38,414 bases of DNA from a virus, in IMG/VR virus record IMGVR_UViG_3300025073_000106, positions 1 through 38,414 of that record; one strand, given 5' to 3'. Both the position numbers and the translations under genes were made by a program. Each line of letters begins with the position of its first letter. Position 1 is the first letter of the stretch. Shown here in pieces: positions 4,088 through 33,875 of this stretch. The notes below the pieces were generated by a model that saw nothing but the letters and a program-made list of their open reading frames with translations, had not been told where the DNA came from and ran no database searches.

Positions 4088-4149
4088 TTTGTGAAAATTA
4101 GAGCCAGAGGCCAATGAAAAAATATTTACTTTTTCGCTTTTTCATATTT

Positions 4150-5222: not shown

Positions 5223-5247
5223 TCTATAAAGTTTTTAGCAACATTTT

Positions 5248-5622: not shown

Positions 5623-5638
5623 CTTAAAACTATTTTTA

Positions 5639-5670: not shown

Positions 5671-5671
5671 T

Positions 5672-6685
5672 TTATTTCTTTCTAAATTGTTCTGGAAGTC
5701 CAACTTCAAGTTCAAATTCATCAAAAGTTTGCAATTCACGTTTCGGCTGTTTCTGAGCCCAATTCCACATTTTCGTCAATCCTTCTTTCAGGGAAGTTTT
5801 GCATTCCAAGCCCAAAATATCTCTAGCCTTTTGATGGTCACTGAAAGCATTGCGAACTTCATGAATTCCTTGATAATATTTCCTCTCAACTTTCTCACCA
5901 ACCACTTCTTCCAATGTTTCCAACGCTTCAAGTAAGGTCATTTCGTCATCATTTCCAAGATTAAAAACTTGACCTTCTGCTTCTTGATCTATTGCACACG
6001 CCCAAAGTGGTTCTAAAATATCGTCAACGTAGGTAAAGGCTCGTTTTTGAAGTCCATCTCCATAAATTGAACATGGTTCATCGTTTAAAATTTGACGCAT
6101 CCAAATTCCCAAGACATTTCTTCTGGAATCTGAAATTTGTTGACCTGGACCATAGACTGAATGTGGCCTCACAACCGCATACTTCAATCCATGCTGTTCC
6201 TTAGCACATTGTAAATCTAATTCCACACTGAACTTACCAATTCCGTAAGGATCGCAGGGTGAAGGTGTCATTGATTCAATGAACGGAGTTGGTTGATTTC
6301 CGTAAACTGCCATGCTAGAAAAATAAACCAATCGACCAACGTTGAACTTTATGCAATGATTTATTACATTTGCACTGACAACAATATTATTCGCATAATA
6401 GTGCTGTCTCATAAATGGAGACCAACTTTCAGCGGCAATAGCAGCCGCGTGAAAGACAATCAGAACTTCATTCGCTTCAAAGATATCTGTTAAATCATCT
6501 CCAGCATTCCGAATGAAGCAATCACATCCAGGAACGAAGTCTTCAATATCACTTCCAGATAAATCGTCGAGGGCGATGACTTTTAATTCTGGACGATTTT
6601 CAAGGATCCATCTACATAGATTTGAACCTAGACAACCTGCTGCACCAGTGATGAGTATCGATTTTGGTTTATTCTGCATCTTCAT
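5672..6685 (-). CDS. NAD-dependent nucleotide-sugar epimerase/dehydratase (337 aa)
   Basis: Extended short-chain dehydrogenase of the GalE/UDP-sugar epimerase type. The NAD-binding glycine motif is ILITGAAGCLGSN near the N-terminus, followed by ALDDLSG. The catalytic triad is visible as YFSSMAVYG (Ser) and DPYGIGKFS (Tyr-x-x-x-Lys). VVRPHSVYGPGQ and the substrate-side RAFTYVDDILEPLW and VFNLGNDDEMT complete the fold at normal length. It probably makes or interconverts a nucleotide sugar for the transferases around it. The exact sugar cannot be told. A second ATG 6 bases in is an alternative start. Confidence 0.88.
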   Translation of the reverse strand: MKMQNKPKSILITGAAGCLGSNLCRWILENRPELKVIALDDLSGSDIEDFVPGCDCFIRNAGDDLTDIFEANEVLIVFHAAAIAAESWSPFMRQHYYANNIVVSANVINHCIKFNVGRLVYFSSMAVYGNQPTPFIESMTPSPCDPYGIGKFSVELDLQCAKEQHGLKYAVVRPHSVYGPGQQISDSRRNVLGIWMRQILNDEPCSIYGDGLQKRAFTYVDDILEPLWACAIDQEAEGQVFNLGNDDEMTLLEALETLEEVVGEKVERKYYQGIHEVRNAFSDHQKARDILGLECKTSLKEGLTKMWNWAQKQPKRELQTFDEFELEVGLPEQFRKK

Positions 6686-8891: not shown

Positions 8892-8893
8892 AT

Positions 8894-10057: not shown

Positions 10058-10328
10058 TAATTTTAAACGATTTATAACCAAGTTGACTTACCTGAACACC
10101 TTCTTGAGAAACAATTTGTTCGGGATCAATTAAATACAAAATACCATCATTTTCAAAGAGATAAATTGAAACGATTGTTTCCCAACCAAAATTTTCAATG
10201 TCACCATTTTTATATGAATGATAATATAGAAACTTCAAATTTGAACAATCAATCTTTTCTGTTTTGAGCATTGATTTTAGAAAAGAAGTCATTGACTGAA
10301 TATTCTTTTCTCTAATTTTCTGAGTCAT
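10050..10328 (-). CDS. Hypothetical protein (92 aa)
   Basis: Start taken at ATG 10328 (MTQKIREKNIQSM), which overlaps the end of the upstream gene; another ATG lies 6 bases earlier. A helical N-terminus is followed by a beta-rich part (FGWETIVSIYLFENDGILYL). No family recognised. Confidence 0.55.
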   Translation of the reverse strand: MTQKIREKNIQSMTSFLKSMLKTEKIDCSNLKFLYYHSYKNGDIENFGWETIVSIYLFENDGILYLIDPEQIVSQEGVQVSQLGYKSFKINE

Positions 10329-10542
10329 GTCCATTTTTGATGAATTCATTTATTTTTTCAAGTGCTGTTTGGTATTTTGCTTGAAGTTTAGGTTTAAAAC
10401 CAATCATCCTTAAAAAATATTCATTTCTAATCTTAGAGTAGAAGATTTTATATTCGCTGAAAATAGAAAAGTTATCATCTATTTTATTTGTGTATTTATC
10501 TTCCCAAACTAAACACCAATCTGTTTCTAAATTATCATTCAT
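10312..10542 (-). CDS. Hypothetical protein (76 aa)
   Basis: Begins MNDNLETDWCLVWEDKYTNK and ends with a helix (ALEKINEFIKNGHDSEN). It looks like a small alpha/beta protein of the kind common in T4-like phages. It overlaps its neighbours on both sides. Family not recognised. Confidence 0.6.
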   Translation of the reverse strand: MNDNLETDWCLVWEDKYTNKIDDNFSIFSEYKIFYSKIRNEYFLRMIGFKPKLQAKYQTALEKINEFIKNGHDSEN

Positions 10543-10966
10543 TTTCTAATCTTAATTTATCAAATTCATTTAATGCATCTGAAAAATCGCTGAACTTTTT
10601 AGAACATTCTGGATCCAGAACCTGAATTTTATCTCCTTGAACCCGTTGTAATTTATCTAAAGGTTTTTCGCCTTCTTCTAAATCACGAAACGCATTGACT
10701 TCCCAACCATCATTTAAAGTTGGTTGTAGAACAATTGAATCGGTGAATAATGTGATCTTATACCAAACTTGACCCAAATCGTCAATGAATTTTGAAACAT
10801 AAGTCGGATCAGAACAATATTTTTCAAATGGAATGTGAAGTTGATCCCGTTCATTCCAACCTTTAAAGGTATGATATCCTGTTTCAACACATAACATCCT
10901 ATCGCCTTCCAAGAGGACGGTTTTCTTCCCCGTCATTGGATTGATATAATCATAGGTTAGTTTCAT
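10535..10966 (-). CDS. Hypothetical protein (143 aa)
   Basis: Soluble protein starting MKLTYDYINPMTGKKTVLLE. It contains ITLFTDSIVLQPTLNDGWEV and a helical C-terminus (FSDALNEFDKLRLENE). The ATG overlaps the upstream stop as ATGA. No family recognised. Confidence 0.6.
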   Translation of the reverse strand: MKLTYDYINPMTGKKTVLLEGDRMLCVETGYHTFKGWNERDQLHIPFEKYCSDPTYVSKFIDDLGQVWYKITLFTDSIVLQPTLNDGWEVNAFRDLEEGEKPLDKLQRVQGDKIQVLDPECSKKFSDFSDALNEFDKLRLENE

Positions 10967-11169
10967 GATTTTGGAAATAATTTAAGAAATATCCAGTGTC
11001 CAGGATATGCTGCTATAAAGCATGAAAGAATGCACGAAATCAAAAACACATGATCGGTGTCCAAATCATTTGAAAAGATTCTATAAATCAAAACACTTAT
11101 TGGCATTGAGATTATAAACGAGACAATCATAATACCAAATAATGTCAAACACATGAGTAAATTTTTCAT
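10963..11169 (-). CDS. Two-span membrane protein (68 aa)
   Basis: Two long hydrophobic segments: roughly residues 3-30 (LLMCLTLFGIMIVSFIISMP) and 41-62 (VFLISCILSCFIAAYPGHWI). The linker is short and acidic. Probably an inner-membrane protein; function unknown. Confidence 0.6.
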   Translation of the reverse strand: MKNLLMCLTLFGIMIVSFIISMPISVLIYRIFSNDLDTDHVFLISCILSCFIAAYPGHWIFLKLFPKS

Positions 11170-11176
11170 TTCTAAG

Positions 11177-11437
11177 TTATTTTTTAATTGTAAAAGTTAT
11201 TCTATTTTTAAATTCATCAATCATATTAGCAAACAGACTAACTCGCATTTCATTTGTATATTTGAATTTATAACTTTCCAATGACATAAATGGAGCAATG
11301 TCTTGACAAATAAAGACAATCCTCCATCTTTTAAAAATCTTCAAAAAAGAAACTTTTTCTTCAATATAGTATCGAGTTTGAAACATTTCAAATGAAATTC
11401 TACATCTATAATTGGGATCAAATTGAAATAAAATCAC
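11177..11437 (-). CDS. Hypothetical protein, GTG start (86 aa)
   Basis: The GTG start at 11437 shares one base with the stop of the glycosyltransferase upstream (TAGTG). Basic and aromatic-rich, beginning MILFQFDPNYRCRISFEMFQ. A promoter-like site lies about 60 bases upstream, inside the end of the previous gene. No family recognised. Confidence 0.55.
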   Translation of the reverse strand: MILFQFDPNYRCRISFEMFQTRYYIEEKVSFLKIFKRWRIVFICQDIAPFMSLESYKFKYTNEMRVSLFANMIDEFKNRITFTIKK

Positions 11438-12771
11438 TAAGTTATTTTCTTTAATTGTGGAAGATTAATCCGAACCTGACTTGGTTCTTTATTCACAAAG
11501 GTAAGTTCTTTTTCTAACAATTCCAAAAATCTAGATGACATTTTTTCAATCGAGAAATTCTCTTTGGTATATTTGGTTGATTTTCTTGACTTTACGAGAT
11601 ATTTTTCATAATTTTCAAAAACATCAGATAAAACTTGTCCAGCATACTGGTAACTGACTGTGAACCATTCTCCTTCCTTTGGAATCCACTCATTTGCTGC
11701 ACTTCCGTCAATCTTGGTTAATTTTCCTGGAAGTAAAACTGAATAATCTGGATTCAAAAAGTCTAACGGACCTGAATAAGCGGAACAAATGACAGGTTTT
11801 CCAGTAGCAGTGAATTCAAGTAACGGAAGTCCAAATCCTTCACCCTTATGAAAACTAACCATCGCCTTAACTTTCGGATGGTTATAGAGTTCATTCATCT
11901 CTGTATCTGATAAATCACCGTTCAAGACATAGATGGACGGAAGTTTACCTTTGAAACCTTCTTCACGGATCATTTCTTGAATTTGGTTGATTTTATCTAG
12001 AATCTGATCACGTTCCGTAATACTGAATCCTGCTCCAGATGTCTTGAGAATCAATGCTGGACGTTTCTTTTTATTCTTGAAAACATCTAAGAAAGTTTTA
12101 ATTAACATTCCAACATCTTTTCTGTCTTGACCTAATCTACCGTTTAAGAAATGTCCAGTAAAGAGATAACAAAAATCTTCTTTAATACCTTTGAACAATT
12201 CATTTACATCACTTGAAATTTCAGTCGTTTTGTGGAAAATATTTAAGTCTAAACCCTCAAAGAGAACTTCAATAGGCTTGTTGACTTGGATCGTTTCAAC
12301 AATTCTGTCATTTTCTTTCTTATCATATTTAGTCTGAAGCAGAACGTCCTTGGTGAATTGACTTGGGACGATGACTAAATCAACGCGATTGCATCCTTCC
12401 AGGAAGTTTAGAGGCGCAATTGATGATTCTGTTCCTGCCGTGATTCCAATATTCTTCTTTCCCTTAGGTTGAAATTCATTTGGAATTGATACTTGGATAT
12501 GTAGGTCAGGTTGGCGATCCAAACCTTGAACGAATAAATCTAAGATTTCCTTATCTTCAGGAATATTTGGATCAAGTCCTGTCATTGGAGTATTTCCCCA
12601 TCTGGTAGGGAAGACTTTGACGTCAAATTTATCCATACTCAAGATGGATTTCAGGAGAATCCTACAATGGGTTCCATATCCTGATCTCGTTCCGACGCTT
12701 CCTTCGAACAGCAAAAGAGGTCTTGGTGTATTATCTTTCAATTGAATATTCAAGTTCTTAGATTCCTGCAT
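11437..12771 (-). CDS. GT4-type glycosyltransferase, GT-B fold (444 aa)
   Basis: Full-length GT-B enzyme. The N-terminal domain has RPLLLFEGSVGTRSGYGTHC with a glycine-rich acceptor loop, then GITAGTESS and VDLVIVPSQFTKDVL. The C-terminal domain has YLFTGHFLNGRLGQDRKDV (nucleotide-binding strand), LPSIYVLNGDLSDTEMNELY and the diagnostic SFHKGEGFGLPLLEFTATGK with the E-x7-E-like donor-binding motif. Retaining GT4 enzymes transfer sugars from nucleotide-sugar donors. The acceptor is not visible. It overlaps the upstream gene by 14 bases. An internal promoter-like site sits near its 3' end. Confidence 0.85.
   Translation of the reverse strand: MQESKNLNIQLKDNTPRPLLLFEGSVGTRSGYGTHCRILLKSILSMDKFDVKVFPTRWGNTPMTGLDPNIPEDKEILDLFVQGLDRQPDLHIQVSIPNEFQPKGKKNIGITAGTESSIAPLNFLEGCNRVDLVIVPSQFTKDVLLQTKYDKKENDRIVETIQVNKPIEVLFEGLDLNIFHKTTEISSDVNELFKGIKEDFCYLFTGHFLNGRLGQDRKDVGMLIKTFLDVFKNKKKRPALILKTSGAGFSITERDQILDKINQIQEMIREEGFKGKLPSIYVLNGDLSDTEMNELYNHPKVKAMVSFHKGEGFGLPLLEFTATGKPVICSAYSGPLDFLNPDYSVLLPGKLTKIDGSAANEWIPKEGEWFTVSYQYAGQVLSDVFENYEKYLVKSRKSTKYTKENFSIEKMSSRFLELLEKELTFVNKEPSQVRINLPQLKKIT
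11495..11526 (-). promoter_or_regulatory. Bacteroidota-type promoter inside the GT4 gene
   Basis: Minus strand: TTTG, 20 bases, then TACCTTTG, the same pattern as 5639-5670. It lies in the last 90 bases of the GT4 coding region and points at the gene at 11177-11437 and those beyond it. Coding constraint could produce such a match by chance, but the exact spacing argues against that. Confidence 0.5.
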
Positions 12772-13072
12772 TTAAACCAAGTAATTTCTTTTCTTCCTTG
12801 GTGAGTTTATTTAATGCTTTTTTAATTGCTTCTTTATTTTCAAAATTCTCTACAATTCGATTATTGTCAAAATATTCGAGGAAATGACTTGAAGCATAGT
12901 TTTTAAAATTTTGTCTTCCCCAAACTTTCAAGATTGAAATGGCTTCTTCTAAGAATTTATCATAATCACCTGGAATAAACGGGAAACGACTTGTGGTAGC
13001 CATTTCAATGTAAGAATCTAATCGACTTGCATATTTCAACAAATCTTCTTCTGTTTCAAAAATTAATTTCAT
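12758..13072 (-). CDS. Hypothetical protein (104 aa)
   Basis: Mostly helical soluble protein beginning MKLIFETEEDLLKYASRLDS. It ends in a lysine-rich helix (KALNKLTKEEKKLLGL). Its end overlaps the GT4 start by 14 bases. Family not recognised. Confidence 0.6.
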   Translation of the reverse strand: MKLIFETEEDLLKYASRLDSYIEMATTSRFPFIPGDYDKFLEEAISILKVWGRQNFKNYASSHFLEYFDNNRIVENFENKEAIKKALNKLTKEEKKLLGLNAGI

Positions 13073-13073
13073 C

Positions 13074-13355
13074 TTATAAACTTTTTATTGATTTTACTAT
13101 TAATTCATCTGCCTTAATTTGGTCAAAATGTTCCAAATATCCATCACTGTCACAAATCCCTTCAATTATTTCATTCTTAACCAATGCGTGATATATTTGG
13201 TAATCCCAACCTGAATTACCAAACGGTCTCCTTCCGTTGAAAGATTCTCCATCTTGCCATAATTCAAGGAGTAATCTGATGAAATATTCTTTAATGGTTA
13301 TCTTTTCATGGAAATCATCGCAGAAAAATTCGATTTCTAAAATGTTCTTATTCAT
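13074..13355 (-). CDS. Hypothetical protein (93 aa)
   Basis: Begins MNKNILEIEFFCDDFHEKIT. The middle (FGNSGWDYQIYHALVKNEII) resembles the winged-helix-like or small-acceptor segments seen in many phage proteins, without a clear match. Overlaps the upstream gene by 4 bases (ATGA type). Confidence 0.58.
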   Translation of the reverse strand: MNKNILEIEFFCDDFHEKITIKEYFIRLLLELWQDGESFNGRRPFGNSGWDYQIYHALVKNEIIEGICDSDGYLEHFDQIKADELIVKSIKSL

Positions 13356-13546
13356 ATAAATTTTCTATAATGTTCTGGATCTGAAATGATATCATCTAAG
13401 AAATCTTTAGTCACAACAATTCCAAGTGAAGTAAGAATATAAGCATTTCTCTCCTTATCAAAATTGTCAGGACCAAAGGCAAAATCGATCATATCATTAT
13501 CAATGTGATAAAGAATGAATTCTAAAATATTATTTTTATTTACCAT
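13352..13546 (-). CDS. Small acidic hypothetical protein (64 aa)
   Basis: Begins MVNKNNILEFILYHIDNDMI; acidic with a helical C-terminus (KDFLDDIISDPEHY). Overlaps the end of the split glycosyltransferase gene by 7 bases. No family recognised. Confidence 0.55.
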   Translation of the reverse strand: MVNKNNILEFILYHIDNDMIDFAFGPDNFDKERNAYILTSLGIVVTKDFLDDIISDPEHYRKFI

Positions 13547-14466
13547 ACAATTCCATCATTTAGAATTTCCGATTTCTCTTCAACGGCGATCATTGAATAT
13601 TTCTTAGGACTCTTCCATGTTGCAAACAGCGTTTCAACCGAAGTCGTGAATCGTTTGCAAACATCAATTGAATTCATTCCAGATTCTTCACTCATGACCC
13701 AATCCCTTCCAATCAATCCTCTTCTATCCCGTTCTTCTTTTCCTAAGTCATAGATGAATTTTAATCCAGTTGCTGCATCTTCTGCATCTGAAAAGTCATC
13801 AAAGATATATGGTGTTGGAATTGAACCTTGAAGTGCTCTAGCCCTAGGGAATATTGGATAAACCCATTCTCCACATTTCTTATATTTTCCCCTGTGATTG
13901 CTGGTAAATTCAGAATCAAATTCAATCCATTTTCCTTCTTCATCTTCAAATCTCATTTGATCTTGAAGTCCCCCCGTAACTGGTGCAATTAACATCGTTC
14001 CTGCCATAATTGATTCGTTTGCGGCCAATCCAAATCCTTCAGCACTGGACATGAAGAAAGTGCAATCAGATAGATTATAGAACCAATTCAACACTTGAGC
14101 AGGAATCATTTCTTGATTGAATAAGACTTTATACTTTGGACAAATGGCTTTTTTTACTGCCATCAAATCTGTTCCGTTTTCGTCCGCAATTTGCGTCTTC
14201 ATTATCAAGCAACAACGCTTTGCTTTTTCAGGAGGTAATTGATCGCAAAATCTCCGATAACTTAAGATGATATCACCAGGTTGCTTCCGTCTAATATTTC
14301 TACTGTTGAAAAATACGATGAAATCCACGTCATGCTTCTTTAAAAAATCTTCCTTGAACCTTTGATAGTCGTTCCAATCGTGAGATTCAGATGTTTCTTT
14401 GAAGTAATATTTTGGATTCGAACCATGAGGAATGTAGCTGAGTAATACTGGTTGTCTATTTGCCAT
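13540..14466 (-). CDS. Split GT-B glycosyltransferase, C-terminal half (308 aa)
   Basis: Holds only the donor-binding half of a GT4-type enzyme. After a short leader it reads LLSYIPHGSNPKYYF, which in intact enzymes is the linker joining the two Rossmann domains, then DFIVFFNSRNIRRKQPGD (first strand of the C-domain) and FFMSSAEGFGLAANESIMAG (donor site, E-x7-E). The acceptor half is encoded separately at 15593-16165, beyond a homing endonuclease and an RHH-like gene. I choose ATG 14466, which has AGGA 8 bases upstream and overlaps the RHH-like stop; an ATG at 14493 is the alternative. The halves are in different frames, so they would have to associate as two proteins. Confidence 0.82.
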   Translation of the reverse strand: MANRQPVLLSYIPHGSNPKYYFKETSESHDWNDYQRFKEDFLKKHDVDFIVFFNSRNIRRKQPGDIILSYRRFCDQLPPEKAKRCCLIMKTQIADENGTDLMAVKKAICPKYKVLFNQEMIPAQVLNWFYNLSDCTFFMSSAEGFGLAANESIMAGTMLIAPVTGGLQDQMRFEDEEGKWIEFDSEFTSNHRGKYKKCGEWVYPIFPRARALQGSIPTPYIFDDFSDAEDAATGLKFIYDLGKEERDRRGLIGRDWVMSEESGMNSIDVCKRFTTSVETLFATWKSPKKYSMIAVEEKSEILNDGIVW

Positions 14467-14617
14467 TTTTTGATTCCTGTTCAATGAATTCATTGATTTT
14501 TATCGTTAACCATTTTGTCATTTTATAGCCATATCTATTACAATACTCTTTCAATTTTAAAAAAGTATCATGTTCAATGTTGACAACGTGATTAGGTTTC
14601 ATTTCTGGTTGATTCAT
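14456..14617 (-). CDS. Ribbon-helix-helix-like small protein (53 aa)
   Basis: Starts at ATG 14617, overlapping the end of the endonuclease gene by 26 bases, and ends inside the start of the split glycosyltransferase half. HVVNIEHDTFLKLKEYCN followed by KMTKWLTIKINEFIEQ has the beta-helix-helix layout and size of Arc/CopG-type DNA-binding proteins. It resembles the small protein spanning the window ends (shared pattern of strand, helix with a Cys-Asn pair, second helix). Probably a regulator travelling with or controlling the endonuclease; inferred from pattern and context. Confidence 0.6.
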   Translation of the reverse strand: MNQPEMKPNHVVNIEHDTFLKLKEYCNRYGYKMTKWLTIKINEFIEQESKNGK

Positions 14618-20590: not shown

Positions 20591-21525
20591 GACTTTAAAT
20601 CTCTTAAAATGTTAATGAACATTGCGGCAATTTGGATTTCTTTGTCGAGAACTAATCCGCTCTTTGATTGAAATTCTGCAATGTGAAGTATGATTCCTGC
20701 TCTTTTTCCATCTGGAACAAATTCTTCAAGTTTATCAAATAAATATCTAAACAGGTCGTCAAATTGCCTGACCTTACTGTCTGCGATTATTTGACGAATT
20801 GCATTGAAAGTTAACTTGACGTCTCCTAGATTTTTCAATTCATCAAGAATCATATCACAATAATCAGCGACAATTCTTTCTTGAGAATCAATTTTTAATT
20901 CTCCAGTGATTGAATTTCTCTGAAGTGTCTGAATTGTTTTCCTGAGATCTGGATAGCATTGAGTTACAATAGAAATCAAATCTCTTGGGTCGTATTTGAC
21001 ATTTTCATTGTCAAGAATTGTCTTACAACGAAGCGCAACTGATTTTTTATCTGGAGGCTGAATATGGAATTCGACAAGTCGACTTCTAAGTGGCTGAATT
21101 AAACGTTCTGCGTAATTCGCCGTAAAAATAAATCTAGTATTTTTACTGAACGTTTCAATTATATTTCTGAGAGCAGGTTGAGCGGAATGTGCTACAAGAA
21201 AATCGGATTCGTCAAGAATAATAATCTTCCACCTTGAAAATCCAACTGAACTGGCGAATGTTTTGATTTTATCTCTAACCGTTTCAATGTTATTTTCATC
21301 GCTTGCATTGATGTACATCACATCAGCATCGAGTTCCTTTCCAATTATTTTTGCAGCAGTTGTTTTACCAGAACCTGGCGAGACCGAGTGAAGTAACAGT
21401 GATGGGACATCTCCTTCGGCGATCCATTTACGAACCTTACTGACGAAATCTTCATTTCCAACGTAATCATCAAATGTCTGAGGTCGATATTTCTCGTACC
21501 AAAGTGAATTGACTAAATTTGACAT
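20587..21525 (-). CDS. 44: Clamp-loader large subunit, gp44-like AAA+ ATPase (312 aa)
   Basis: ATPase that opens and loads the sliding clamp. It has the usual clamp-loader start SLWYEKYRPQTFDDYVGNED, a Walker A in SPGSGKTT (residues 49-56), a Walker B in IIILDESDF (D105-E106), a sensor-1 strand FIFTANYAERL and the arginine-finger motif RSRLVEF (about 147-153). The length matches T4 gp44 (319). The gp62-like partner is at 18553-19008, the clamp at 24894-25610. Confidence 0.95.
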   Translation of the reverse strand: MSNLVNSLWYEKYRPQTFDDYVGNEDFVSKVRKWIAEGDVPSLLLHSVSPGSGKTTAAKIIGKELDADVMYINASDENNIETVRDKIKTFASSVGFSRWKIIILDESDFLVAHSAQPALRNIIETFSKNTRFIFTANYAERLIQPLRSRLVEFHIQPPDKKSVALRCKTILDNENVKYDPRDLISIVTQCYPDLRKTIQTLQRNSITGELKIDSQERIVADYCDMILDELKNLGDVKLTFNAIRQIIADSKVRQFDDLFRYLFDKLEEFVPDGKRAGIILHIAEFQSKSGLVLDKEIQIAAMFINILRDLKS

Positions 21526-22568
21526 AAAAGTTTTTTGAATATTTGATTTGAATAATACTTTTCACCCATCTCTTTCGCATCACTTAAAACCACGTCCTTC
21601 CATTTCTCATAATTATCAATCTTTTCCGAAATAAAATCCATCAACTGCAATCTGTTCCTGACAATATACAAGAATTTATTATTCTTCGGCTTTGACAACA
21701 TTGAAGGATATTGATAAATCGCAGGAAACGTGTATTGATACATCAGTCTTTTTGGGACGAACGGAACCAAACCATTGACCATTCCTTCATAGAGCATCAC
21801 TGGATCATATTCTTGGTATGCTCCACAGAACATTCCAATTGATTCCTTCAATAAAATCCTGTATTGCCATCTGTGATTATGCGTCTTTCTAGCAAAGACA
21901 AATTCATAATCTAATTCTGCGGCTAAACCTTTGAATATCTGCGATTGATATTCATTGACAACATCATAAGGAAAAACAATCTTTTTTTCTTTGTCATCTA
22001 AACCAACATCTCTCGTCAAATATTCAAAGGGATAACCAGTGACTTCAAATTGCGTTTTATTTAAGTTCCGACCTGAATATTTGTTCTGAAACAACTTTAA
22101 ATGTTCATCACATAAAAAGCAATTTAAATCGTAAGCGTTGTAAAGTGCTAATTCAAAATCCCTACCCCATTTCTTATGTTTTCTCTTGAACCTTTTCCAC
22201 ATTGGACTCTGTTGATTGAACAGTGAATTGCCCCAGAATCCAATCATCTTAATTTTCAAGCCAAACTCATATCTAAAAAACGACAATGGTACAGCGACAA
22301 AATTCCAAGCGTTCGTGAATATAAAAATATCACCTGACTTGATTTCGTTCTTCGTCACCATGTCCAAAATCACCTTCAATTGATGTGTTTTGAAATTGGT
22401 ATCTGCCCAGAGATACGATTCGTGCCTTAAACTTGAACCTTCGATGATATTGACTTCATATTGATCAAAGTCTATGTCTTTAAAGCATTCCCTCCAATAC
22501 GTCTCGATTCGATTATCAAATGGAGTGTAATCAGTCAGAATGTGAAGAGTTGGTTTTTTCAATATCAA
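21513..22568 (-). CDS. Probable GT-B glycosyltransferase in the replication block (351 aa)
   Basis: Begins KKPTLHILTDYTPFDNRIET, a plausible first Rossmann strand. KSGDIFIFTNAWNFVAVPLS and MIGFWGNSLFNQ belong to the N-domain. ESIGMFCGAYQEYDPVMLYE followed by GMVNGLVPFVPKRL resembles the donor-site region of GT-B enzymes. The start is TTG (22568 or 22562). The identification is moderate. It overlaps the clamp-loader gene by 13 bases, so it is expressed with the replisome, which makes a DNA-related role worth testing. Confidence 0.58.
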   Translation of the reverse strand: MILKKPTLHILTDYTPFDNRIETYWRECFKDIDFDQYEVNIIEGSSLRHESYLWADTNFKTHQLKVILDMVTKNEIKSGDIFIFTNAWNFVAVPLSFFRYEFGLKIKMIGFWGNSLFNQQSPMWKRFKRKHKKWGRDFELALYNAYDLNCFLCDEHLKLFQNKYSGRNLNKTQFEVTGYPFEYLTRDVGLDDKEKKIVFPYDVVNEYQSQIFKGLAAELDYEFVFARKTHNHRWQYRILLKESIGMFCGAYQEYDPVMLYEGMVNGLVPFVPKRLMYQYTFPAIYQYPSMLSKPKNNKFLYIVRNRLQLMDFISEKIDNYEKWKDVVLSDAKEMGEKYYSNQIFKKLLCQI

Positions 22569-26083: not shown

Positions 26084-27373
26084 TTAAAAAAAATCTGAAT
26101 CAGCATCCAAGTTAATTTTGCCCCATCCTAAATCCTCCCAAATAGTTTCAAGTTTAGACATTAAAGAACGATTAAATATTTCATTCTTGTCAATAAATCT
26201 CTCTAAGAATTCGACTATCTGATTCGGATCATCATATCCCCTAATTGCCAATGTTTCAAAACCATAAGGATTTGCTTTCAAATATGCCCACAATATCTTA
26301 TCACCATCTTCAATCTTTGGTAGATTTTCAATTTTAAACAACTCTAGTAATTTATTGTAATTCTGTGCAGACTTGACGTGGATTGGAGTTCCTTTCTGTC
26401 CATATTTGAACTTGGATATTTCTTTGACTGAAGTTGGAAGAAGGATATCACGAATAGATTCAGATTTGAATTGTTTTTTAAAATTCTTGATTTTGATATT
26501 TAATTCTGTCGAATTTACGTCATGTAAAATATCAATAATCAGTTCTTTTTGAATTTTTCTGAAAGTTAATGGAAATGAAGATCTAACCATATCAAATCCC
26601 TTAAAATCAGTTTTTTCATTCAAATTCTTATCTAACGTTAATTGAGCATATCTTTTCTTAGCAGTTCCCCAAAATGCTCTTTTTGCAATCTTTTCTTGTG
26701 CAAATTTTAGACGACAATTATTTGAATTGAAATGATTTTCTGCTAACCACTTTAATGATTGATTTGCATATTCACAAACACTGTTTGAAATTTCAACGAT
26801 TTTTGGGTAAATTTCAGAATCATTTAAAGTCTCATAATCATCAATCAATGGAATTGCTTCAATGTACGTTGAATCTGTGTCAGAATAAGTTACAAAATCT
26901 GCGGAATTTTCTATATTTAATTTATTTTTATAATATTTATTTATAACTGAACCTGAAAATTTAATTATATCTTGACCAGAAAGAGTCACACCTTCTCCAT
27001 TCTGCTTATCATAGAATCTAAACGATGGAAGTAACAAAACACCATAAAAAGAATTCAACAAAATTTTGGTAATCAATTGCTTTCTGTCAAAATATTCATA
27101 GTCAGGCGAATCGGGTTTAAATTCTTTCAATTTTGTTTTATACTCCAATCGTTCATTAAACCAAGTGTTTAATATTGATGGAATCAATCCAACCTGTTTA
27201 TTATGATAAACAACGCCATTTCCTGCAATTGATGCTTTGTTTTTCTCTATAAAATCGATGAATTCAGTCTTGCTCAAAGTTACTGTTCTAACCTCAGTAA
27301 AAGCCAAAATCCCAGGTTCAAACAAATCAAGTGTTATCTGAATATCATCTGGCAAAAAATTAAAATTATTCAT
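26084..27373 (-). CDS. 43: Split family B DNA polymerase, C-terminal half (429 aa)
   Basis: Carries the rest of the palm, fingers and thumb. Motif B is KQLITKILLNSFYGVL (about residues 98-113) and motif C is TYSDTDSTYI (163-171, with the two catalytic Asp). The C-terminus ends in DADSDFF, where T4 gp43 has its clamp-binding tail. Motif A is not here but in the N-half. ATG 27373 overlaps the homing endonuclease stop as ATGAATAA, so it is translated by coupling. Together the halves have 839 residues, near the 898 of T4 gp43. They lie in different frames and would need to assemble as two chains. Confidence 0.93.
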   Translation of the reverse strand: MNNFNFLPDDIQITLDLFEPGILAFTEVRTVTLSKTEFIDFIEKNKASIAGNGVVYHNKQVGLIPSILNTWFNERLEYKTKLKEFKPDSPDYEYFDRKQLITKILLNSFYGVLLLPSFRFYDKQNGEGVTLSGQDIIKFSGSVINKYYKNKLNIENSADFVTYSDTDSTYIEAIPLIDDYETLNDSEIYPKIVEISNSVCEYANQSLKWLAENHFNSNNCRLKFAQEKIAKRAFWGTAKKRYAQLTLDKNLNEKTDFKGFDMVRSSFPLTFRKIQKELIIDILHDVNSTELNIKIKNFKKQFKSESIRDILLPTSVKEISKFKYGQKGTPIHVKSAQNYNKLLELFKIENLPKIEDGDKILWAYLKANPYGFETLAIRGYDDPNQIVEFLERFIDKNEIFNRSLMSKLETIWEDLGWGKINLDADSDFF

Positions 27374-28649
27374 TTAAAAATATTTTAAATTGTTCGATAA
27401 TAGCGTTTTTATTAGTTCTCCAATCAGTTTCCCAAATAACAAAAACCTTATATCCTAAATCAGTTAAATATTGAATTCTACTTTCATCAAATTTCCAAAC
27501 TTCTTCTGCCGAAACGTTTCCGCGTTTTTTAGCAGTTGGTAAATATATTTTAGGATTTAAGTGCCAATAATCACCAAAAAATTCAATAACAATATTTTTA
27601 TCTTCTATTAACCCATCAACAATAAATCTTCCAATTACAAATTCTTGAATAATATCAATGTTAAATTTTTCTTTTAGTTCCAAAAAACATTGAATACTAA
27701 CTTTTGATTTATGTTTGAATAATTTTGAAATTTGTAACTTTCCATCTCGTTCTGAATATCCTTTGTTTAACCAAAATCTAATGTCGTGTGACTGAAATAA
27801 AATATTCCAAATATCTTTACGATTTTCATCTGAATACTCAATATTATGTTCAATTGCATATTTGTAGCACGCTTTCCAACAACCATATTCCTTATAAAAT
27901 CTTCCCTCATCTTTTAATTTTTGAATTAAAATATCGTTTAAAATTCTCCAAGATTCAATTTGTTCAGGAGTTCTTGGAATGTAGTTTTTCTTAGCCTTAT
28001 CACTAAACCATTTTTTAATTTCATCATCTGTAAGTCCGCGTTTAATCAACGAATTTCTTCCACTAATAAAGTGTTTAACTTCTTCAATTGGAATATTTTT
28101 AATAATTGAATAATGCTCCTTCAATGGAATAGTTAATCGTCTAATCCAATGGTTATCTCCGGAAATTTGTTGATGGATATTATCAAAATGTTGTTTAAAC
28201 TTTTCTGAACCTTTCTTATCGCCATACCTTGCTTTAAATGATTCTAATGATGTTGTTGATTGTCTATTATAATAGTTCTGATTTGCTAATAAAACATCGC
28301 CATTTGATTTTCTTAAAAAGAACTCATAATTAGTTGGAACAAATGATTTATAAAATTTCTCAATTATATTTCTGTCAATATTGTAAATTGTATATTTTCT
28401 AAAATACAATAAATTTAAAAAACACTTTTTGCAATAAGAAAACTTTCTATCACACTTTTTAGACATTCCTTCTGGAAACAAAACATCAAAATAATCATAT
28501 ACAGAATCATGAAATAATTTATAATAGTCTTCTCTTCCTTCGTTTGCGCTAATCCTCTTCTTTTTCAAACCAGTAACTTGACATAATGGATTATAATTCA
28601 TTGATCCCACCGACACTTCAACATCATCATCTTTAACAAACGTTCTCAA
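27366..28649 (-). CDS. Vsr-like (EDxHD-type) homing endonuclease (427 aa)
   Basis: Lies exactly between the two polymerase halves. It has a Cys-rich N-terminus (KKCDRKFSYCKKCFLN), a central region with ESFKARYGDKKGSEKFKQHF of the kind seen in phage homing enzymes, and a C-terminal nuclease domain, RFIVDGLIEDKNIVIEFFGD then YWHLNP (D345, E356, D360, H363), ending GYKVFVIWETDWR. This matches very-short-patch-repair-like homing endonucleases such as the I-Bth0305I family. The start is TTG 28649 behind GAGGAA. The leader is nearly the same as that of the HNH enzyme at 37531-38241. Confidence 0.82.
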   Translation of the reverse strand: MRTFVKDDDVEVSVGSMNYNPLCQVTGLKKKRISANEGREDYYKLFHDSVYDYFDVLFPEGMSKKCDRKFSYCKKCFLNLLYFRKYTIYNIDRNIIEKFYKSFVPTNYEFFLRKSNGDVLLANQNYYNRQSTTSLESFKARYGDKKGSEKFKQHFDNIHQQISGDNHWIRRLTIPLKEHYSIIKNIPIEEVKHFISGRNSLIKRGLTDDEIKKWFSDKAKKNYIPRTPEQIESWRILNDILIQKLKDEGRFYKEYGCWKACYKYAIEHNIEYSDENRKDIWNILFQSHDIRFWLNKGYSERDGKLQISKLFKHKSKVSIQCFLELKEKFNIDIIQEFVIGRFIVDGLIEDKNIVIEFFGDYWHLNPKIYLPTAKKRGNVSAEEVWKFDESRIQYLTDLGYKVFVIWETDWRTNKNAIIEQFKIFLNE

Positions 28650-28667
28650 TAAAATTTCCTCATTTTT
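28647..28667 (-). promoter_or_regulatory. Leader with ribosome site shared by two homing endonucleases
   Basis: Minus strand AAAAATGAGGAA followed six bases later by the TTG start. The same 12 bases occur before the TTG start of the HNH enzyme at 38241. It includes an ATG that opens a five-codon frame here whose TGA overlaps the TTG, which could limit or couple endonuclease translation. Confidence 0.5.
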
Positions 28668-29898
28668 ATTTTAAATTTACTAAACGGTTAATTTCTTCCC
28701 AATTATGAATTTTTGCAATTTTGGTTTCTGGAGAAATATTACAAGTCATGATTATTGATGGATACAAACTCTGAAGATCTAATGAATAAACCCATTTATA
28801 AAATCCAGTTTTCGGTTGTTTGACAAACGCACCCTCTGCTTTACCTTGTTCATCTCCTTTAATCCCAGATGAAGCAACGAAGCCGTTCCTCTTACAATAA
28901 ACTAAACTTGCCCCATCCAAGAATCTACTTGGCATTGTAAAGTCTTCGTATGGAACGTGACCTTTATGACAAATACCCATTGCAATTGAAATGAAATCCA
29001 ATTTCTTGTCCATTGCAACTAAAAGTTCAACGTCAGAAACGTTATATTGAATGAACTTGTGAATGTCATTTTCAAACAATGAATCTAAACTTCCTTCATA
29101 TTCAACCTTTCCCCTGCCAAGTTCCTTCTTTGAAATTGCGTCCAAGGTGTATCTTGGTTCTTCGTTGTAATTGTAATTCTTGTAGAGTTTCAGGTAATCT
29201 AATTGACTTACTCCAGCAATTTTAATTGAATAGTCCCTTCCGTATTCATTTTGGTAGACAATTCCAATTGGGGAAAGTTTTCTTGCAACTTTTTCTCCTA
29301 GAACATTGATTAAACGATTGAATAAATATGGCATATCAAAGTGATCAGTATTCCAGCCAGTTATAATATCAACTTTTAACTTTTGATATTCAGTGATGAA
29401 ATATGCTAGAAGTTGGTCTTCTCGACTAAATCTCTTTAAATGAGTTCCATCAATTATTTTATCTTCAATCTTACAATCTGGATCTAATAGGAGACAATGA
29501 TACTTTTGTTCAATTGAAGAATAATAGGCGATTGCAGTTACGGTATTGAACGCTTCATTTGGCTTTGAATACTTTCCTTCCTTTGCAATCTCAATATCCA
29601 AGAATAAAATATTGTGACCAACTGAAACGTCATCATTCTGAAAATAACGATCAATTAAAACTCTTGTTTCAGTTCTAACGTCATGTTCAAAAATCAAGTT
29701 TTGCTTTTCTGCTTCTTTGCTCCAATTACTGACTTTCTTAACTTTCAAACCGTTCAAGGTTACGTTCGTTCCTTTTGGATCAACTTGATACGCATATCGC
29801 TCAAAAGGAAAACATGAATATGGTTTATCGTTGTGTTGACCATCGGTCCACAAATGAACCATTTGATTATTACGGTCAAAATGTAAATTTTTATACAT
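28666..29898 (-). CDS. 43: Split family B DNA polymerase, N-terminal half (410 aa)
   Basis: Contains the 3'-5' exonuclease and the first palm segment. Exo I is FLDIEIAK (D101, E103), Exo II GWNTDHFDMPYLFN (181-194), Exo III YNVSDVELL (285-293), and motif A DLQSLYPSII (374-383) followed by NISPETKIAKIHNWEE. The frame stops at residue 410, just where T4 gp43 continues into its fingers region. All proofreading residues are present. Starts with TAATG at the dpdA stop, so the DNA-modification operon and the polymerase are translated in sequence. Confidence 0.94.
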   Translation of the reverse strand: MYKNLHFDRNNQMVHLWTDGQHNDKPYSCFPFERYAYQVDPKGTNVTLNGLKVKKVSNWSKEAEKQNLIFEHDVRTETRVLIDRYFQNDDVSVGHNILFLDIEIAKEGKYSKPNEAFNTVTAIAYYSSIEQKYHCLLLDPDCKIEDKIIDGTHLKRFSREDQLLAYFITEYQKLKVDIITGWNTDHFDMPYLFNRLINVLGEKVARKLSPIGIVYQNEYGRDYSIKIAGVSQLDYLKLYKNYNYNEEPRYTLDAISKKELGRGKVEYEGSLDSLFENDIHKFIQYNVSDVELLVAMDKKLDFISIAMGICHKGHVPYEDFTMPSRFLDGASLVYCKRNGFVASSGIKGDEQGKAEGAFVKQPKTGFYKWVYSLDLQSLYPSIIMTCNISPETKIAKIHNWEEINRLVNLK

Positions 29899-31118
29899 TA
29901 AAAGAAGTCGTTAGATTTGGAATGATCAACTTCAGTATAAAGTGAGTTGGCTTTTAATATAAAAGGCTTGTTTTTTGCAAAGACTAATTCAGGATTATCT
30001 GACTTAACTAAATCATCAATTAATTTCAATAACAAGAACGTATCTTTTGATAAGAGTTGCTCCATTAAATAAGGTTCACCATTAATATAATAATTTATCT
30101 CTTTAATCGCATCTTGAAATAAGTAGAAATTATGAAGGACTGATGTCATGTATCCAATATTATTCCAAGTCTTAATATCATTATATTCATATCCATCCTT
30201 TAACCATTCATGGAATTGATTGTAAACTGGCAATTTAAAATCATTATCTTTGAACAATTTTTTCTCAGTGTGGTTGGATCTGTCAGAACCATGTTCAATA
30301 TCTTTTGGAAAGTGCAAAGATCTAAAACTACAAGTTCTTAAATCATATCCACAATAAATCAAACCATAAACAGTTGAACGGTTTGGAGATGAACTGTCAG
30401 TTGTCACTTGAACGTTTGATCCGACATCATTTAATGATTTCTGCAATTGAGAAATTATCAAGAAATCAATAATCTTACTCGTTCCAAGGACGTGAAAATA
30501 TTCATTTCTTGGATTTAGATGTTCCTTACCAGATAAAAATGCTAAAATTCCAGATAAAAATCTATAAATTGATCCTCCAGCACCACCAATTGACCAGCCT
30601 TCAAATTCAAATTCCTTGACTTGATTATACCATTCTTTATATGATAATTCATCATTTCCTTGAATAACATTTAAAAATTTAACCTTCCCTTTTCGATTCT
30701 CATAGAAATATTTAATATTTTCCCGTGAAAGTTCTAAGCAATGATCAAATTTACCATTATATTGCAATCGAGGCGGAATATCTAAATTCATTGCAATAGT
30801 TGAACTGTCTTCAAGCCAATTCAACATCACTTCTTTAAATTTTTGATCCCATTTAATTGCACCTGAAGCAATTTGATAACCACCTGAATCTCCAAATAAA
30901 ACAGCGTCTGGTTCTTTATCAAATCCCCATTCCTCAGCTATATTTTTTTTCTTGTAAAAATGTCCAGCTGGCCAAAGGAAATATGGATATCGAAACTGTT
31001 CTGGAAAATCTGAACTGTAAAATCTACAAGTTGAACCGTTTTTCAACAACCAATTATTCTTTGCTCCTGCGCCATAAACCCCAGCAGAAAAAGAAGGGAA
31101 ATAGATAAAATCTTTCAT
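29898..31118 (-). CDS. dpdA: DpdA-type DNA-guanine transglycosylase (406 aa)
   Basis: TGT-superfamily enzyme that exchanges guanine in DNA for a 7-deazaguanine. Motifs: FGDSGGYQIASG (D77, substrate pocket, equals the DSGGFQ of tRNA enzymes), MNLDIPPR (112-117 with a catalytic-type Asp), VIQGND (151-156), GWSIGGAGGS (174-183) and TTDSSSPNRSTVYG further on. The domain that reads tRNA in bacterial TGT is absent; this and the phage setting point to the DNA-acting DpdA branch. It overlaps the glycosyltransferase upstream and the polymerase N-half downstream by one base each (TAATG). Confidence 0.87.
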   Translation of the reverse strand: MKDFIYFPSFSAGVYGAGAKNNWLLKNGSTCRFYSSDFPEQFRYPYFLWPAGHFYKKKNIAEEWGFDKEPDAVLFGDSGGYQIASGAIKWDQKFKEVMLNWLEDSSTIAMNLDIPPRLQYNGKFDHCLELSRENIKYFYENRKGKVKFLNVIQGNDELSYKEWYNQVKEFEFEGWSIGGAGGSIYRFLSGILAFLSGKEHLNPRNEYFHVLGTSKIIDFLIISQLQKSLNDVGSNVQVTTDSSSPNRSTVYGLIYCGYDLRTCSFRSLHFPKDIEHGSDRSNHTEKKLFKDNDFKLPVYNQFHEWLKDGYEYNDIKTWNNIGYMTSVLHNFYLFQDAIKEINYYINGEPYLMEQLLSKDTFLLLKLIDDLVKSDNPELVFAKNKPFILKANSLYTEVDHSKSNDFF

Positions 31119-32095
31119 TAATTAAACCACTCTTTAAAAATATTTTGTGAATTAAATATACTATTATTTTTTATAATTAAATTAGTTGAACCTTCTGTCA
31201 AATATTTCTCAACTAAATCAATACATTCATCAAACGATTTATATAAAAATTCATCATTAATAAATTCCGGATAAACAACTGAATTTGGTACTATTGGAAT
31301 GCAACCTAAATTAACCGCTTCCAAAACTCCAAACCCAAAGTTTTCTTGCAAAGCAAAAGAAACGACAATTTCAGATCTACCAAGTAATGAATAATATTCG
31401 TCCTTTGATAGATTTTGCTCTTGGGTCCAAATAAATTGAGTCTGTGGAAATTTGTGCTGAAGTTTATTTTTTAATTCAACAAACAAATGTGGTTGCTTTT
31501 CTGGATGGTTTCGACCATTAAAAATTACAATAGATTCCTTTTGAAGTGACTGAAATTTTGATAAATTTGAATCAAGTGGGAATCTCGTGACTGTTACCTT
31601 ATTTGGATTAATGATTCGTTTTTTACAAACATCATTTTTGATGAAATTTGAACCAACAAACACTTGATCAGTTATATCAAAAACAATGTCCTCAAAGTTC
31701 TTAGCCCATCTTTCAAGATTCCGAACTTCGTCCGTATCAGTAAATGAACCGGCGTGTAAAATTCCCCTAATTTTTGGAAAAACTTGATTAAAGTGATTCA
31801 TGTATGGGATTGACTCAATTCCAGGAAACCATAAATCACTGAAAAAAAGAACATCATCTGTTTCTATCAAACCGGCCTGATACATATCAGAAAGGCACGA
31901 CAATTGTTGACATTTAAACTTTGTCGTGAAGTTACTGTCTAGGAACATTCCAGGTTTAAGTCCAGGAGAACTAATTTCTGGATAGATTCTAATGTATTCA
32001 AGGTTTTCAGACTCAAAATAATCAACAATATCACAATCCAAATGTGATGTGTATCTTGAATCAATATGTTCAAGTGGAAAATAAATTATCTTCAT
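31118..32095 (-). CDS. GT4-like glycosyltransferase in the deazaguanine operon (325 aa)
   Basis: GT-B-fold transferase. The N-domain has MKIIYFPLEHIDSRYTSHLD, DVLFFSDLWFPG, GILHAGSFTDTD and DQVFVGSNFIKNDVCKK. The C-domain starts IVIFNGRNHPEKQPHLF and has the donor-site motif FALQENFGFGVLEAVNLGC (E-x7-E). It overlaps the T-fold gene by 4 bases and dpdA by one, so it is made with the base-modification enzymes. It may attach sugar to the deazaguanine or to another DNA base; an unrelated virion target is possible. Confidence 0.82.
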   Translation of the reverse strand: MKIIYFPLEHIDSRYTSHLDCDIVDYFESENLEYIRIYPEISSPGLKPGMFLDSNFTTKFKCQQLSCLSDMYQAGLIETDDVLFFSDLWFPGIESIPYMNHFNQVFPKIRGILHAGSFTDTDEVRNLERWAKNFEDIVFDITDQVFVGSNFIKNDVCKKRIINPNKVTVTRFPLDSNLSKFQSLQKESIVIFNGRNHPEKQPHLFVELKNKLQHKFPQTQFIWTQEQNLSKDEYYSLLGRSEIVVSFALQENFGFGVLEAVNLGCIPIVPNSVVYPEFINDEFLYKSFDECIDLVEKYLTEGSTNLIIKNNSIFNSQNIFKEWFN

Positions 32096-32439
32096 GCTAT
32101 TTTGTAAATTTTTGCTCCATTTTCTCCATCTTCACTGACAATTGCTGACTCTAATTCAAATGATTCCAAGAGCAATCTTCCAATTGCTTCACAAGACATT
32201 GATCCAAATTCAGAAGGTGTTCCAAATTTAGAATTTAACCAAGATTGAACTTCTCGCTTAAATAGAATAAATTCAACATCTCGATCATCGTGATTAACTT
32301 TTTTTTCCAGTTCAAATTGGAAAATGTGCCGATGTCGCTCTGATAAAAAGGAAACTTCTGGAAACAATTCCTTCGCTTTTGGAAAATTGTGAAATCCTTC
32401 AAGTTGAAATTTAATTATAATATTCGCCTGAGTTTTCAT
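32092..32439 (-). CDS. QueD-like T-fold protein without catalytic Cys (115 aa)
   Basis: Aligned by eye to QueD: RHRHIFQFEL takes the place of the zinc-binding CxxxHGH strand, RDVEFILFKREVQSWL that of the DFxxLK helix, MSCEAIGRLLLESFE that of the PTSExLAxW helix, and SAIVSEDGENGAKIY that of the final strand. The Cys of QueD and part of the zinc site are missing, so it is not simply a second QueD. Encoded between folE and the glycosyltransferase with 4-base overlaps on both sides. Partner or altered-function paralogue are both possible. Confidence 0.45.
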   Translation of the reverse strand: MKTQANIIIKFQLEGFHNFPKAKELFPEVSFLSERHRHIFQFELEKKVNHDDRDVEFILFKREVQSWLNSKFGTPSEFGSMSCEAIGRLLLESFELESAIVSEDGENGAKIYKIA

Positions 32440-33065
32440 TTTAACGTTTCTATAAAGTGATAGAATTCATTCTTACAACTTGCATTGTCCATAAATGCAC
32501 CTGATAATTTACTCGTTTTCATAACAGAATCATGTCTAACACCACGGCATGAGGCGCAGGTATGTTCTGCTTCAATCAAGACTGCAATTCCTTTGTTATC
32601 AGGTAAAACTCTATTTATAAAATCATGAATCTGCATAGTAAGACCCTCTTGTATCTGGGGGCGCCTGCTGAACCATTCAACAATTCGGTTTAATTTTGAC
32701 AATCCGATAACTGTTTCACCCGGAATATAAGCAACATGAGCCTTACCAATAAAGGCCAACAAATGATGTGAACATAGACTTTTTATATCAATTTTACCTT
32801 GAAACACAATTCCGTCATAACCACTGCTTGCTTCTGCAAAGGTTGTAATTTTTGGTGGTTCAGTAAAACAACCTTCCATTAATTCATTGATGTACGCTTT
32901 TGAAACTCTTTTTGGAGTATCTTGCATATTCGGGTCATTTTCCCAGTCAAATCCCAATGCTGATAAAAACTCACCGTAATGTCTCGTTGCTTCAATTATC
33001 CGTAATTCTCGATCTTCAGGAGTTAAAGGTAAATTACCGTTACTTAATATTAGTTTTCTTGGCAT
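32436..33065 (-). CDS. folE: GTP cyclohydrolase I, FolE (209 aa)
   Basis: Converts GTP to dihydroneopterin triphosphate, the first step of folate and of 7-deazaguanine synthesis. Zinc ligands are visible in KSLCSHHLLAF (C98, H101) and AEHTCASCRGVRH (C170). Other family marks are DPNMQDTPKRVSKAY, GKAHVAYIPG and GLSKLNRIVEWFSRRPQIQE. Full length compared with bacterial FolE (about 220). Next to queD and upstream of dpdA, it would feed the DNA-modification pathway rather than folate. Confidence 0.95.
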   Translation of the reverse strand: MPRKLILSNGNLPLTPEDRELRIIEATRHYGEFLSALGFDWENDPNMQDTPKRVSKAYINELMEGCFTEPPKITTFAEASSGYDGIVFQGKIDIKSLCSHHLLAFIGKAHVAYIPGETVIGLSKLNRIVEWFSRRPQIQEGLTMQIHDFINRVLPDNKGIAVLIEAEHTCASCRGVRHDSVMKTSKLSGAFMDNASCKNEFYHFIETLK

Positions 33066-33267
33066 TATAAATTCCGTAAATATTAATTAAAATTATTATT
33101 GTTGAGAGCGTTGCGTGACTCCAATTCTGAATGTGAAAATCAAATATAATCCAACCAATGTCTCCAATGCACCAAATAAACAATGCTAAATAATGACGTT
33201 TAATTGCATTGAAGTAATAACCAAGCAGGACTAAAACAGTGCAAATCCATCCAAGTATTTCTATCAT
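33040..33267 (-). CDS. Small three-span membrane protein (75 aa)
   Basis: Three hydrophobic segments, roughly residues 3-21, 26-46 and 54-68 (IEILGWICTVLVLLGYYFNA; LALFIWCIGDIGWIIF; LSTIIILINIYGIY). The pattern with a central Gly-Asp-x-x-Trp resembles single repeats of PnuC/SWEET-like transporters. It overlaps queD by 4 bases and folE by 26 bases. A role in moving a precursor is possible but inferred only from position. Confidence 0.6.
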   Translation of the reverse strand: MIEILGWICTVLVLLGYYFNAIKRHYLALFIWCIGDIGWIIFDFHIQNWSHATLSTIIILINIYGIYNAKKTNIK

Positions 33268-33821
33268 TCAGCAAAGTAATTTGATTGACTTTTTGGAGTT
33301 TCAAAGAATTGAACTGAATGAACTTTACAAATATGGCCCATTTTCTTCTGTATAATATCAAATAGCCATTTTGATAAGTTTTCAGATGTTGGTACAAAGG
33401 GAACTAGAACTAATCCTTCATAAATTTCACGTTCACAATCAGATAAATCTAAATAATTTTCAGGAGATATCACATGATGACCTTCAGGAAATCCTGTCAA
33501 TTTATCAAGCATCGAAAACGATCGTTCAGTAATTCTATTTAACAATGGATAAAAAATAGACAAACTTGGATCATCGAAGTCCAAAATCATTTTATGATCT
33601 AAAACATCATCAAGCCATTTTTTGAACCAATTTAAATGCTTGAAATCTGTCACCATTCCATTACTTAATTCATTTGCTTCAAGATAAACAATAATCGTTC
33701 CTTGATGACCATGTTGGTGTCTACAAGCAAGACATGAATCTAAACTCAATTCCGAATTCAATTGCTGATTGTGAACCCGATGTCCATAGCAAAATGAAAA
33801 TTCCTTTCCAATTTTATACAT
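33264..33821 (-). CDS. queD: 6-carboxytetrahydropterin synthase, QueD (185 aa)
   Basis: Second step of 7-deazaguanine synthesis, using the FolE product. Motifs: FSFCYGHRV (zinc His14), CRHQHGHQG (catalytic-type C33 and zinc His37, His39), MVTDFKHLNWF, LDHKMIL, FVPTSENLSKWLFDII and VQFFETPKS, each matching an E. coli QueD block in order. It is about 65 residues longer than E. coli QueD, mainly from an insert in the middle. First gene after the promoter-like site at 33843-33874, with a clear AAGGAAAA ribosome site. Confidence 0.9.
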   Translation of the reverse strand: MYKIGKEFSFCYGHRVHNQQLNSELSLDSCLACRHQHGHQGTIIVYLEANELSNGMVTDFKHLNWFKKWLDDVLDHKMILDFDDPSLSIFYPLLNRITERSFSMLDKLTGFPEGHHVISPENYLDLSDCEREIYEGLVLVPFVPTSENLSKWLFDIIQKKMGHICKVHSVQFFETPKSQSNYFAE

Positions 33822-33842
33822 CTTTTCCTTTTTTATTTCTTT

Positions 33843-33874
33843 ACAAGTTAAATAAAATAATTGATATTTCCAAA
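33843..33874 (-). promoter_or_regulatory. Bacteroidota-type promoter of the deazaguanine operon
   Basis: Minus strand: TTTG, 20 bases, then TAACTTGT; the sequence continues AAAGAAATAAAAAAGG into the queD ribosome site. The TTTG starts one base past the stop of the preceding gene. Same arrangement as the sites at 26025-26056, 11495-11526 and 5639-5670. Confidence 0.65.
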
Positions 33875-33875
33875 T

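Follow-up and report, generated by a model that had tools for sequence, protein, structure and literature searches.

Which modified base does a phage place in its DNA when its 7-deazaguanine gene cluster is devoid of QueC and carries a QueD-fold protein and a glycosyltransferase (GT) instead? The question is raised by virus record IMGVR_UViG_3300025073_000106, a 38,414-base fragment of a viral genome (the window, taken at its full length), on whose minus strand the genes for QueD, a membrane protein, FolE, a T-fold protein, a GT, a DpdA-like transglycosylase and the N-terminal half of a family-B DNA polymerase (PolB) follow one another in this order. We read this row as a QueC-less phage operon for 7-deazaguanine modification of DNA with a built-in glycosylation step, and put the probability of that reading at roughly 0.55. 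Deazaguanine modification of the window phage DNA as such is well supported by the predicted proteins; the presence of a sugar on the base, the atom that would accept it and the order of sugar addition and base insertion are matters that we infer. The pathway rests on the set and order of the genes, the folds of their products, catalytic residues that are either kept or lost, the lack of QueC in relatives and the presence of the GT as an obligate partner.

Results

The association with the GT emerged from a comparison of 103 loci of the T-fold family, taken from annotated phages and IMG/VR. Class A comprises loci in which the T-fold protein is accompanied by the DpdA found in the window, and class B those in which it is accompanied by a short transglycosylase-like protein. 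The GT is present in all 47 class-A loci and in none of the 35 class-B loci, a split that persists after clustering of the T-fold proteins at 70% identity (20/20 versus 0/22, p = 2e-12) or at 50% identity (7/7 versus 0/7, p = 6e-4). Eleven of the 103 loci carry the GT without either transglycosylase, seven of them with a third transglycosylase-like protein (motifs DSGA...VDS), ten have neither the GT nor either transglycosylase, and none has both transglycosylase types together. Genome-wide searches detected the GT in six of six class-A and none of 15 class-B records, and did not find it in 2.275.O, GR11A, 9g or phiSM. Among 50,697 phage records, GT relatives occur in only 20, the same ones with two different queries, and all of these are DpdA/deazaguanine phages. 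The concern that the hidden Markov model (HMM) of the family caught generic GTs could be dismissed in view of the empty class-B loci, the agreement of whole genomes and a widely shared RYT motif (see below). Involvement of the GT in the deazaguanine pathway is strongly supported by the predicted gene content of these loci. An earlier note on this DNA, made from the sequence alone, had listed the gene without comment; it is indeed present, but its standing as the distinctive constant part of class-A clusters had been overlooked.

The window GT (31118..32095, minus strand; 325 amino acids; Pfam GT group 1, 1.9e-7) is modelled with a GT-B fold at a predicted local distance difference test (pLDDT) score of 88, with MshA, GlgM and BshA as the nearest structures. 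It possesses an N-terminal RYT motif, which is found in 45 of 47 family members, the pair Arg195/Lys200, and the motif E251x7E259, of which position 251 is E or D in most members and E259 is kept in 45. Most family members retain the EX7E-type residues and the Arg/Lys pair by which the donor is expected to be bound. By its predicted GT-B fold and its EX7E motif, the protein is a GT4-type retaining glycosyltransferase.

The gene upstream of the GT gene encodes the T-fold protein (32092..32439, minus strand; 115 amino acids; PHROG 17812), which was assigned by AlphaFold, Foldseek and conservation. Its model has a pLDDT of 96, and the top structural match is E. coli QueD (4ntk; 1.3e-5), so that the predicted structure agrees with the label given previously. 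The only match of the T-fold profile among solved sequences, to IucA, was discarded as a chance hit, the fold being settled by structure instead. Histidines H17, H36 and H38, which are of the zinc-ligand type, are kept in at least 102 of 103 homologues, and H50, R53, E56, S82-C83-E84 and E103 are essentially invariant across the 103 sequences. Counterparts of the catalytic cysteine and Asp-His pair of QueD (C33 and D75-H76 in the window QueD) are absent from the T-fold alignment. Judged from model and alignment, the protein is a QueD-fold enzyme whose chemistry is predicted to be unlike that of QueD.

What this chemistry might be is suggested by the distribution of QueC. In a search of whole records, none of 20 long viral records carrying the T-fold protein had a QueC above the cut-off, and QueC was not found genome-wide in PA5oct, ACP17, BUCT-ZZ01, Phosso, phiST, MA9V-3, RHph_I1_18, Ahp1 or Bakedbeans. 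DpdA phages without the T-fold protein (2.275.O, GR11A, PhiXhv-15, 9g and phiSM) do encode QueC. Because QueC is absent where the T-fold protein is present and present where it is absent, the T-fold protein probably acts on 7-carboxy-7-deazaguanine (CDG) in place of QueC; decarboxylation would be the most likely reaction. The earlier note had stated that QueE and QueC are not in the window, and our search returned neither. For QueC, truncation of the record is probably not the explanation, since its absence is systematic in T-fold phages, and preQ0 is therefore probably not the product in these phages. In the nearest relatives (loci L010 and L013-L016), QueE is encoded within the same operon.

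One might instead suppose that the window phage makes preQ0-type bases with the help of host QueC and QueE, that the T-fold protein is a redundant QueD and that the GT serves an unrelated decoration of virion or surface. The absence of both genes from the window fits this scenario, and for other phages a contribution of the host is on record (PMC6884629). We nevertheless consider it improbable, since the T-fold protein lacks the catalytic residues of QueD and occurs alongside a complete QueD, QueC is missing systematically rather than in this record alone, and the GT is tied to the deazaguanine pathway in every relative.

The last gene of the operon (29898..31118, minus strand; 406 amino acids) was labelled dpdA in the earlier note. 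With single-sequence models the label is weak (Pfam TGT, 0.066; NCBIfam DpdA, 0.048, not significant), but it becomes firm with family profiles: a profile of 12 phage DpdA homologues matched solved tRNA-guanine transglycosylases (TGTs) at 4e-5, and a profile of 52 DpdA sequences aligned to E. coli Tgt by hhalign at 1e-8. The protein has the motifs D77-SGGxQ, D113, Q153-G154 and D241, and D77, D113 and D241, near-invariant in the 52 sequences, align to the Tgt motifs DSGGFQ, FDEC and FDCV. The CxCxxC zinc motif of Tgt is missing in 51 of the 52 sequences, that of the window included, and identity between the DpdA family and tRNA TGTs is about 20%. The curated score cut-off for tRNA TGTs was reached by none of 15 records examined, as opposed to 14 of 14 control genomes; by this indirect test the protein does not group with tRNA-acting enzymes, whereas such a grouping is what the earlier note had named as speaking against its interpretation.

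By these alignments the protein is a member of the TGT superfamily, and since it falls outside the TGT family that acts on tRNA, a DpdA-type role is likely, with DNA as the presumed substrate in the window phage. That it acts on tRNA after all, the operon tuning host or phage translation through queuosine supply, is a notion that superfamily membership invites, and a role of this kind has been suggested (PMC6884629) for phages that have genes of the pathway yet lack DpdA. In view of the missed TGT cut-off, the missing zinc motif and the position of the clusters next to replication genes, we regard this notion as very improbable.

The remaining genes of the row encode QueD, or 6-carboxytetrahydropterin synthase (33264..33821; 185 amino acids; Pfam PTPS, 8.6e-26; PHROG QueD-like, 3.7e-32), FolE, or GTP cyclohydrolase I (32436..33065; 209 amino acids; Pfam, 1.7e-52; PHROG, 8.7e-61), and a 75-amino-acid membrane protein to which no role was assigned (33040..33267), all on the minus strand. 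The window QueD keeps the catalytic Cys33, Asp75-His76 and the CxxxHGH motif, residues that are near-invariant across relatives. Homologues of the membrane protein were found in eight loci, those of seven near relatives and L042, where they sit inside the deazaguanine cluster. From queD through the PolB N-half, successive genes overlap by 4, 26, 4, 4, 1 and 1 bases, and the junction between the dpdA stop and the PolB start, TTTTAATGTATAA, contains the TAATG described before. Open reading frame coordinates and Pfam matches thus confirm the overlapping row and the FolE, QueD and GT labels of the earlier note. Tight overlaps by themselves are common in phages; it is because gene set and order are conserved in relatives that the operon stands out from chance. 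The claimed promoter-like site in front of the operon did not hold up: the region contains 47 promoter-like matches as compared with 51.9 +/- 7.4 in shuffled sequences, that is, chance level, and the 54-bp gap upstream of queD (33822-33875) contains none on the minus strand. Taken as a whole, the proposed 7-deazaguanine DNA-modification operon is well supported, whereas what had been said of QueC, the GT and replication needs revision.

Comparison of the 28-38 kb region with phage sequences by megablast gave no match. At the level of genes, clusters of QueD, QueE, FolE, T-fold protein, GT and DpdA are conserved in phages as diverse as PA5oct, ACP17, X1 and BUCT-ZZ01 and in many IMG/VR contigs. 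In Phosso, the genes for T-fold protein, GT, FolE and QueE are together and dpdA lies elsewhere in the genome.

A source for the sugar may be encoded in the same clusters. Eight class-A loci (L080, L083, L085, L093, L097, L104, L106 and L107) and no class-B locus have a nucleotide-sugar epimerase gene near the GT gene within the cluster, and several of the eight have a second GT immediately before dpdA. The window has a nucleotide-sugar epimerase gene at 5672..6685 (minus strand; Pfam Epimerase, 1e-43), whose product shares about 25% identity with the epimerases found inside related operons; it is possible that it acts as the sugar-donor enzyme of the operon, a link that we infer. This gene lies in an island on the minus strand (1445-14493) together with two methyltransferase genes and three further GT genes. 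A second, divergent member of the GT family (21513..22568, minus strand; family HMM, 4.1e-33) overlaps a clamp-loader gene. In this protein the equivalents of Arg195 and Lys200 are replaced by D and Y. Its relatives in phage records are limited to the GTs encoded in the operons of PA5oct-type phages, ACP17 and Phosso; it may be a pseudo-enzyme partner. A distant relative of the GT in PhiXhv-15 is grouped with Gat-QueC, a PIG-L deacetylase and a Gfo/Idh/MocA oxidoreductase; the 'glucosamine-fructose aminotransferase' annotated there turned out to be the Gat-QueC fusion.

Further genes vary between loci. An IMP dehydrogenase-family gene, which perhaps feeds GTP to FolE, is located beside the deazaguanine cluster in seven class-A groups, L064 (10837-11955) among them. 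Phosphoribosyltransferases, which could recycle the released guanine, are encoded in 31 loci and absent from the window. Class-B loci (L004 4346-8583, L022 4950-9094 and similar ones) combine the T-fold protein with the short transglycosylase, which has the motifs DNSAF...WDSSAA, often with a nucleotide kinase and sometimes with MazG, a gene content that suggests modification at the nucleotide level. In L020 and L028, the class-B T-fold protein is fused to an N-terminal extension.

With regard to replication, the N-half of PolB (28666..29898, minus strand; PHROG 262, 1.2e-97) was identified also by alignment to the ACP17 polymerase and ends just past motif A (SLYPSII); the C-half follows at 26084..27373 (minus strand; PHROG 262, 1.4e-75). 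The two halves (26084-29898) are separated by a 427-amino-acid open reading frame (27366-28649) with a Vsr/MTES_1575-like nuclease domain. The PA5oct polymerase shows a comparable split at another site, with a homing endonuclease annotated there. TAATG suggests translational coupling of dpdA to the polymerase in the window, but coupling is not a defining feature, as the gene after dpdA in the nearest relatives is an uncharacterised one rather than PolB. It encodes a 272-amino-acid protein without Pfam match (14 loci; L014 10756-11574), which is absent from the window. The earlier proposal that modification is expressed together with replication remains plausible insofar as PolB occurs in the fetched flanks of 20 of 38 class-A groups versus four of 35 class-B groups, and in L037 the polymerase gene overlaps the T-fold gene; the different gene in the nearest relatives and the chance-level promoter matches count against it.

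Discussion

On the basis of the genes described here, we propose the following pathway. FolE and QueD, together with a QueE supplied by another part of the phage genome or by the host, would convert GTP to CDG, which the zinc-type QueD-fold protein would then convert further, most likely by decarboxylation to 7-deazaguanine, thereby replacing QueC. DpdA would exchange guanine in replicated phage DNA for the resulting base by a Tgt-like mechanism, and the GT4-type enzyme would move a sugar from a nucleotide-sugar donor onto the modified base, whose increased bulk would block restriction enzymes. Extended to class-A phages in general (the window phage, ACP17, PA5oct-type jumbo phages and X1), the proposal of glycosylated 7-deazaguanine DNA made through CDG, the QueD-fold enzyme, DpdA, a dedicated GT4 and, in some, an operon epimerase has, in our estimation, about even odds.

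Several observations weigh against glycosylated DNA. The main weakness is a chemical one: bare 7-deazaguanine offers a GT no obvious oxygen or nitrogen handle, C7 and N2 being the only candidates, so that C-glycosylation, N2-glycosylation or a different product of the T-fold protein would be needed. The modification of the window phage DNA is a prediction from genes, and QueE is lacking from the window. Among T-fold phages, a QueC-like match falls below the threshold in X1 and is partial in D479. The acceptors used by GT4 enzymes are very diverse, and those enzymes of solved structure that come nearest to the window GT act on small molecules. Moreover, Cui et al. in 2023 reportedly found eight 7-deazaguanine derivatives in phages, none of them glycosylated.

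These points lead to an alternative in which plain 7-deazaguanine or CDG is present in DNA and the GT belongs to the pathway without leaving a sugar on DNA; it would produce a sugar-linked intermediate or a protected precursor, or have a protein as its target. The T-fold product seems to suffice without a GT in class B, 7-deazaguanine has no free handle for a sugar, and no phage derivative is reported to be glycosylated. The derivatives described in PMC6884629 are preQ0, preQ1, ADG and G+. We judge this alternative rather unlikely, as the strict tie of the GT to one insertion route, the epimerases in eight relatives and the second GT in several operons fit better with a sugar-bearing end product.

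DpdA-dependent 7-deazaguanine modification of DNA is already known from Enterobacteria phage 9g and E. coli phage CAjan (Hutinet et al. 2019, PMC6884629). Clusters of the window type resemble these systems in that FolE, QueD, QueE and a DpdA of the TGT superfamily are clustered near a DNA polymerase and in the presumed base exchange in DNA, but they differ in having the QueD-fold protein and the GT instead of QueC or Gat-QueC. The window DpdA is also of a long, divergent type whose sequence is distant from that of the 9g enzyme, to which hhalign gave a weak match. The T-fold protein of the QueC-less Cellulophaga phage phiST belongs to the same family as that of the window (46% identical), yet phiST-type clusters have the short transglycosylase and no GT. 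Cui et al. in 2023 are said to have described a CDG decarboxylase, DpdL, and phages with dDG or dCDG, with which the decarboxylation proposed here is in line. The pattern by which the T-fold family replaces QueC is consistent with DpdL, and the QueC-less T-fold route may already be covered by that work.

A nucleotide-sugar-dependent GT in a DNA-modifying phage recalls in concept the hydroxymethylcytosine glucosyltransferases of the T4 type. None of these was recovered in the list of the 50 top structural matches to the window GT, which contains GT4 enzymes (MshA and BshA, for example); the acceptor would presumably be a 7-deazaguanine rather than hydroxymethylcytosine. In vertebrates, the tRNA queuosine glycosyltransferases QTMAN and QTGAL attach a sugar to a 7-deazaguanine derivative, with the cyclopentenediol as acceptor and tRNA as substrate. 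Neither glycosylated deazaguanine DNA nor a dedicated GT or epimerase in such operons was found in the literature searched, which lay mostly outside subscription papers.

If the proposal of a glycosylated 7-deazaguanine is true, a glycosylated purine in place of guanine would form a further class among the known DNA modifications of phages and would account for a conserved gene trio without annotation in several isolated phages, some of which infect Pseudomonas aeruginosa. Phages with such DNA would also be expected to resist restriction enzymes that recognise N7 of guanine. The presence of the T-fold protein together with the absence of QueC provides a simple genomic rule to predict which deazaguanine a phage makes.

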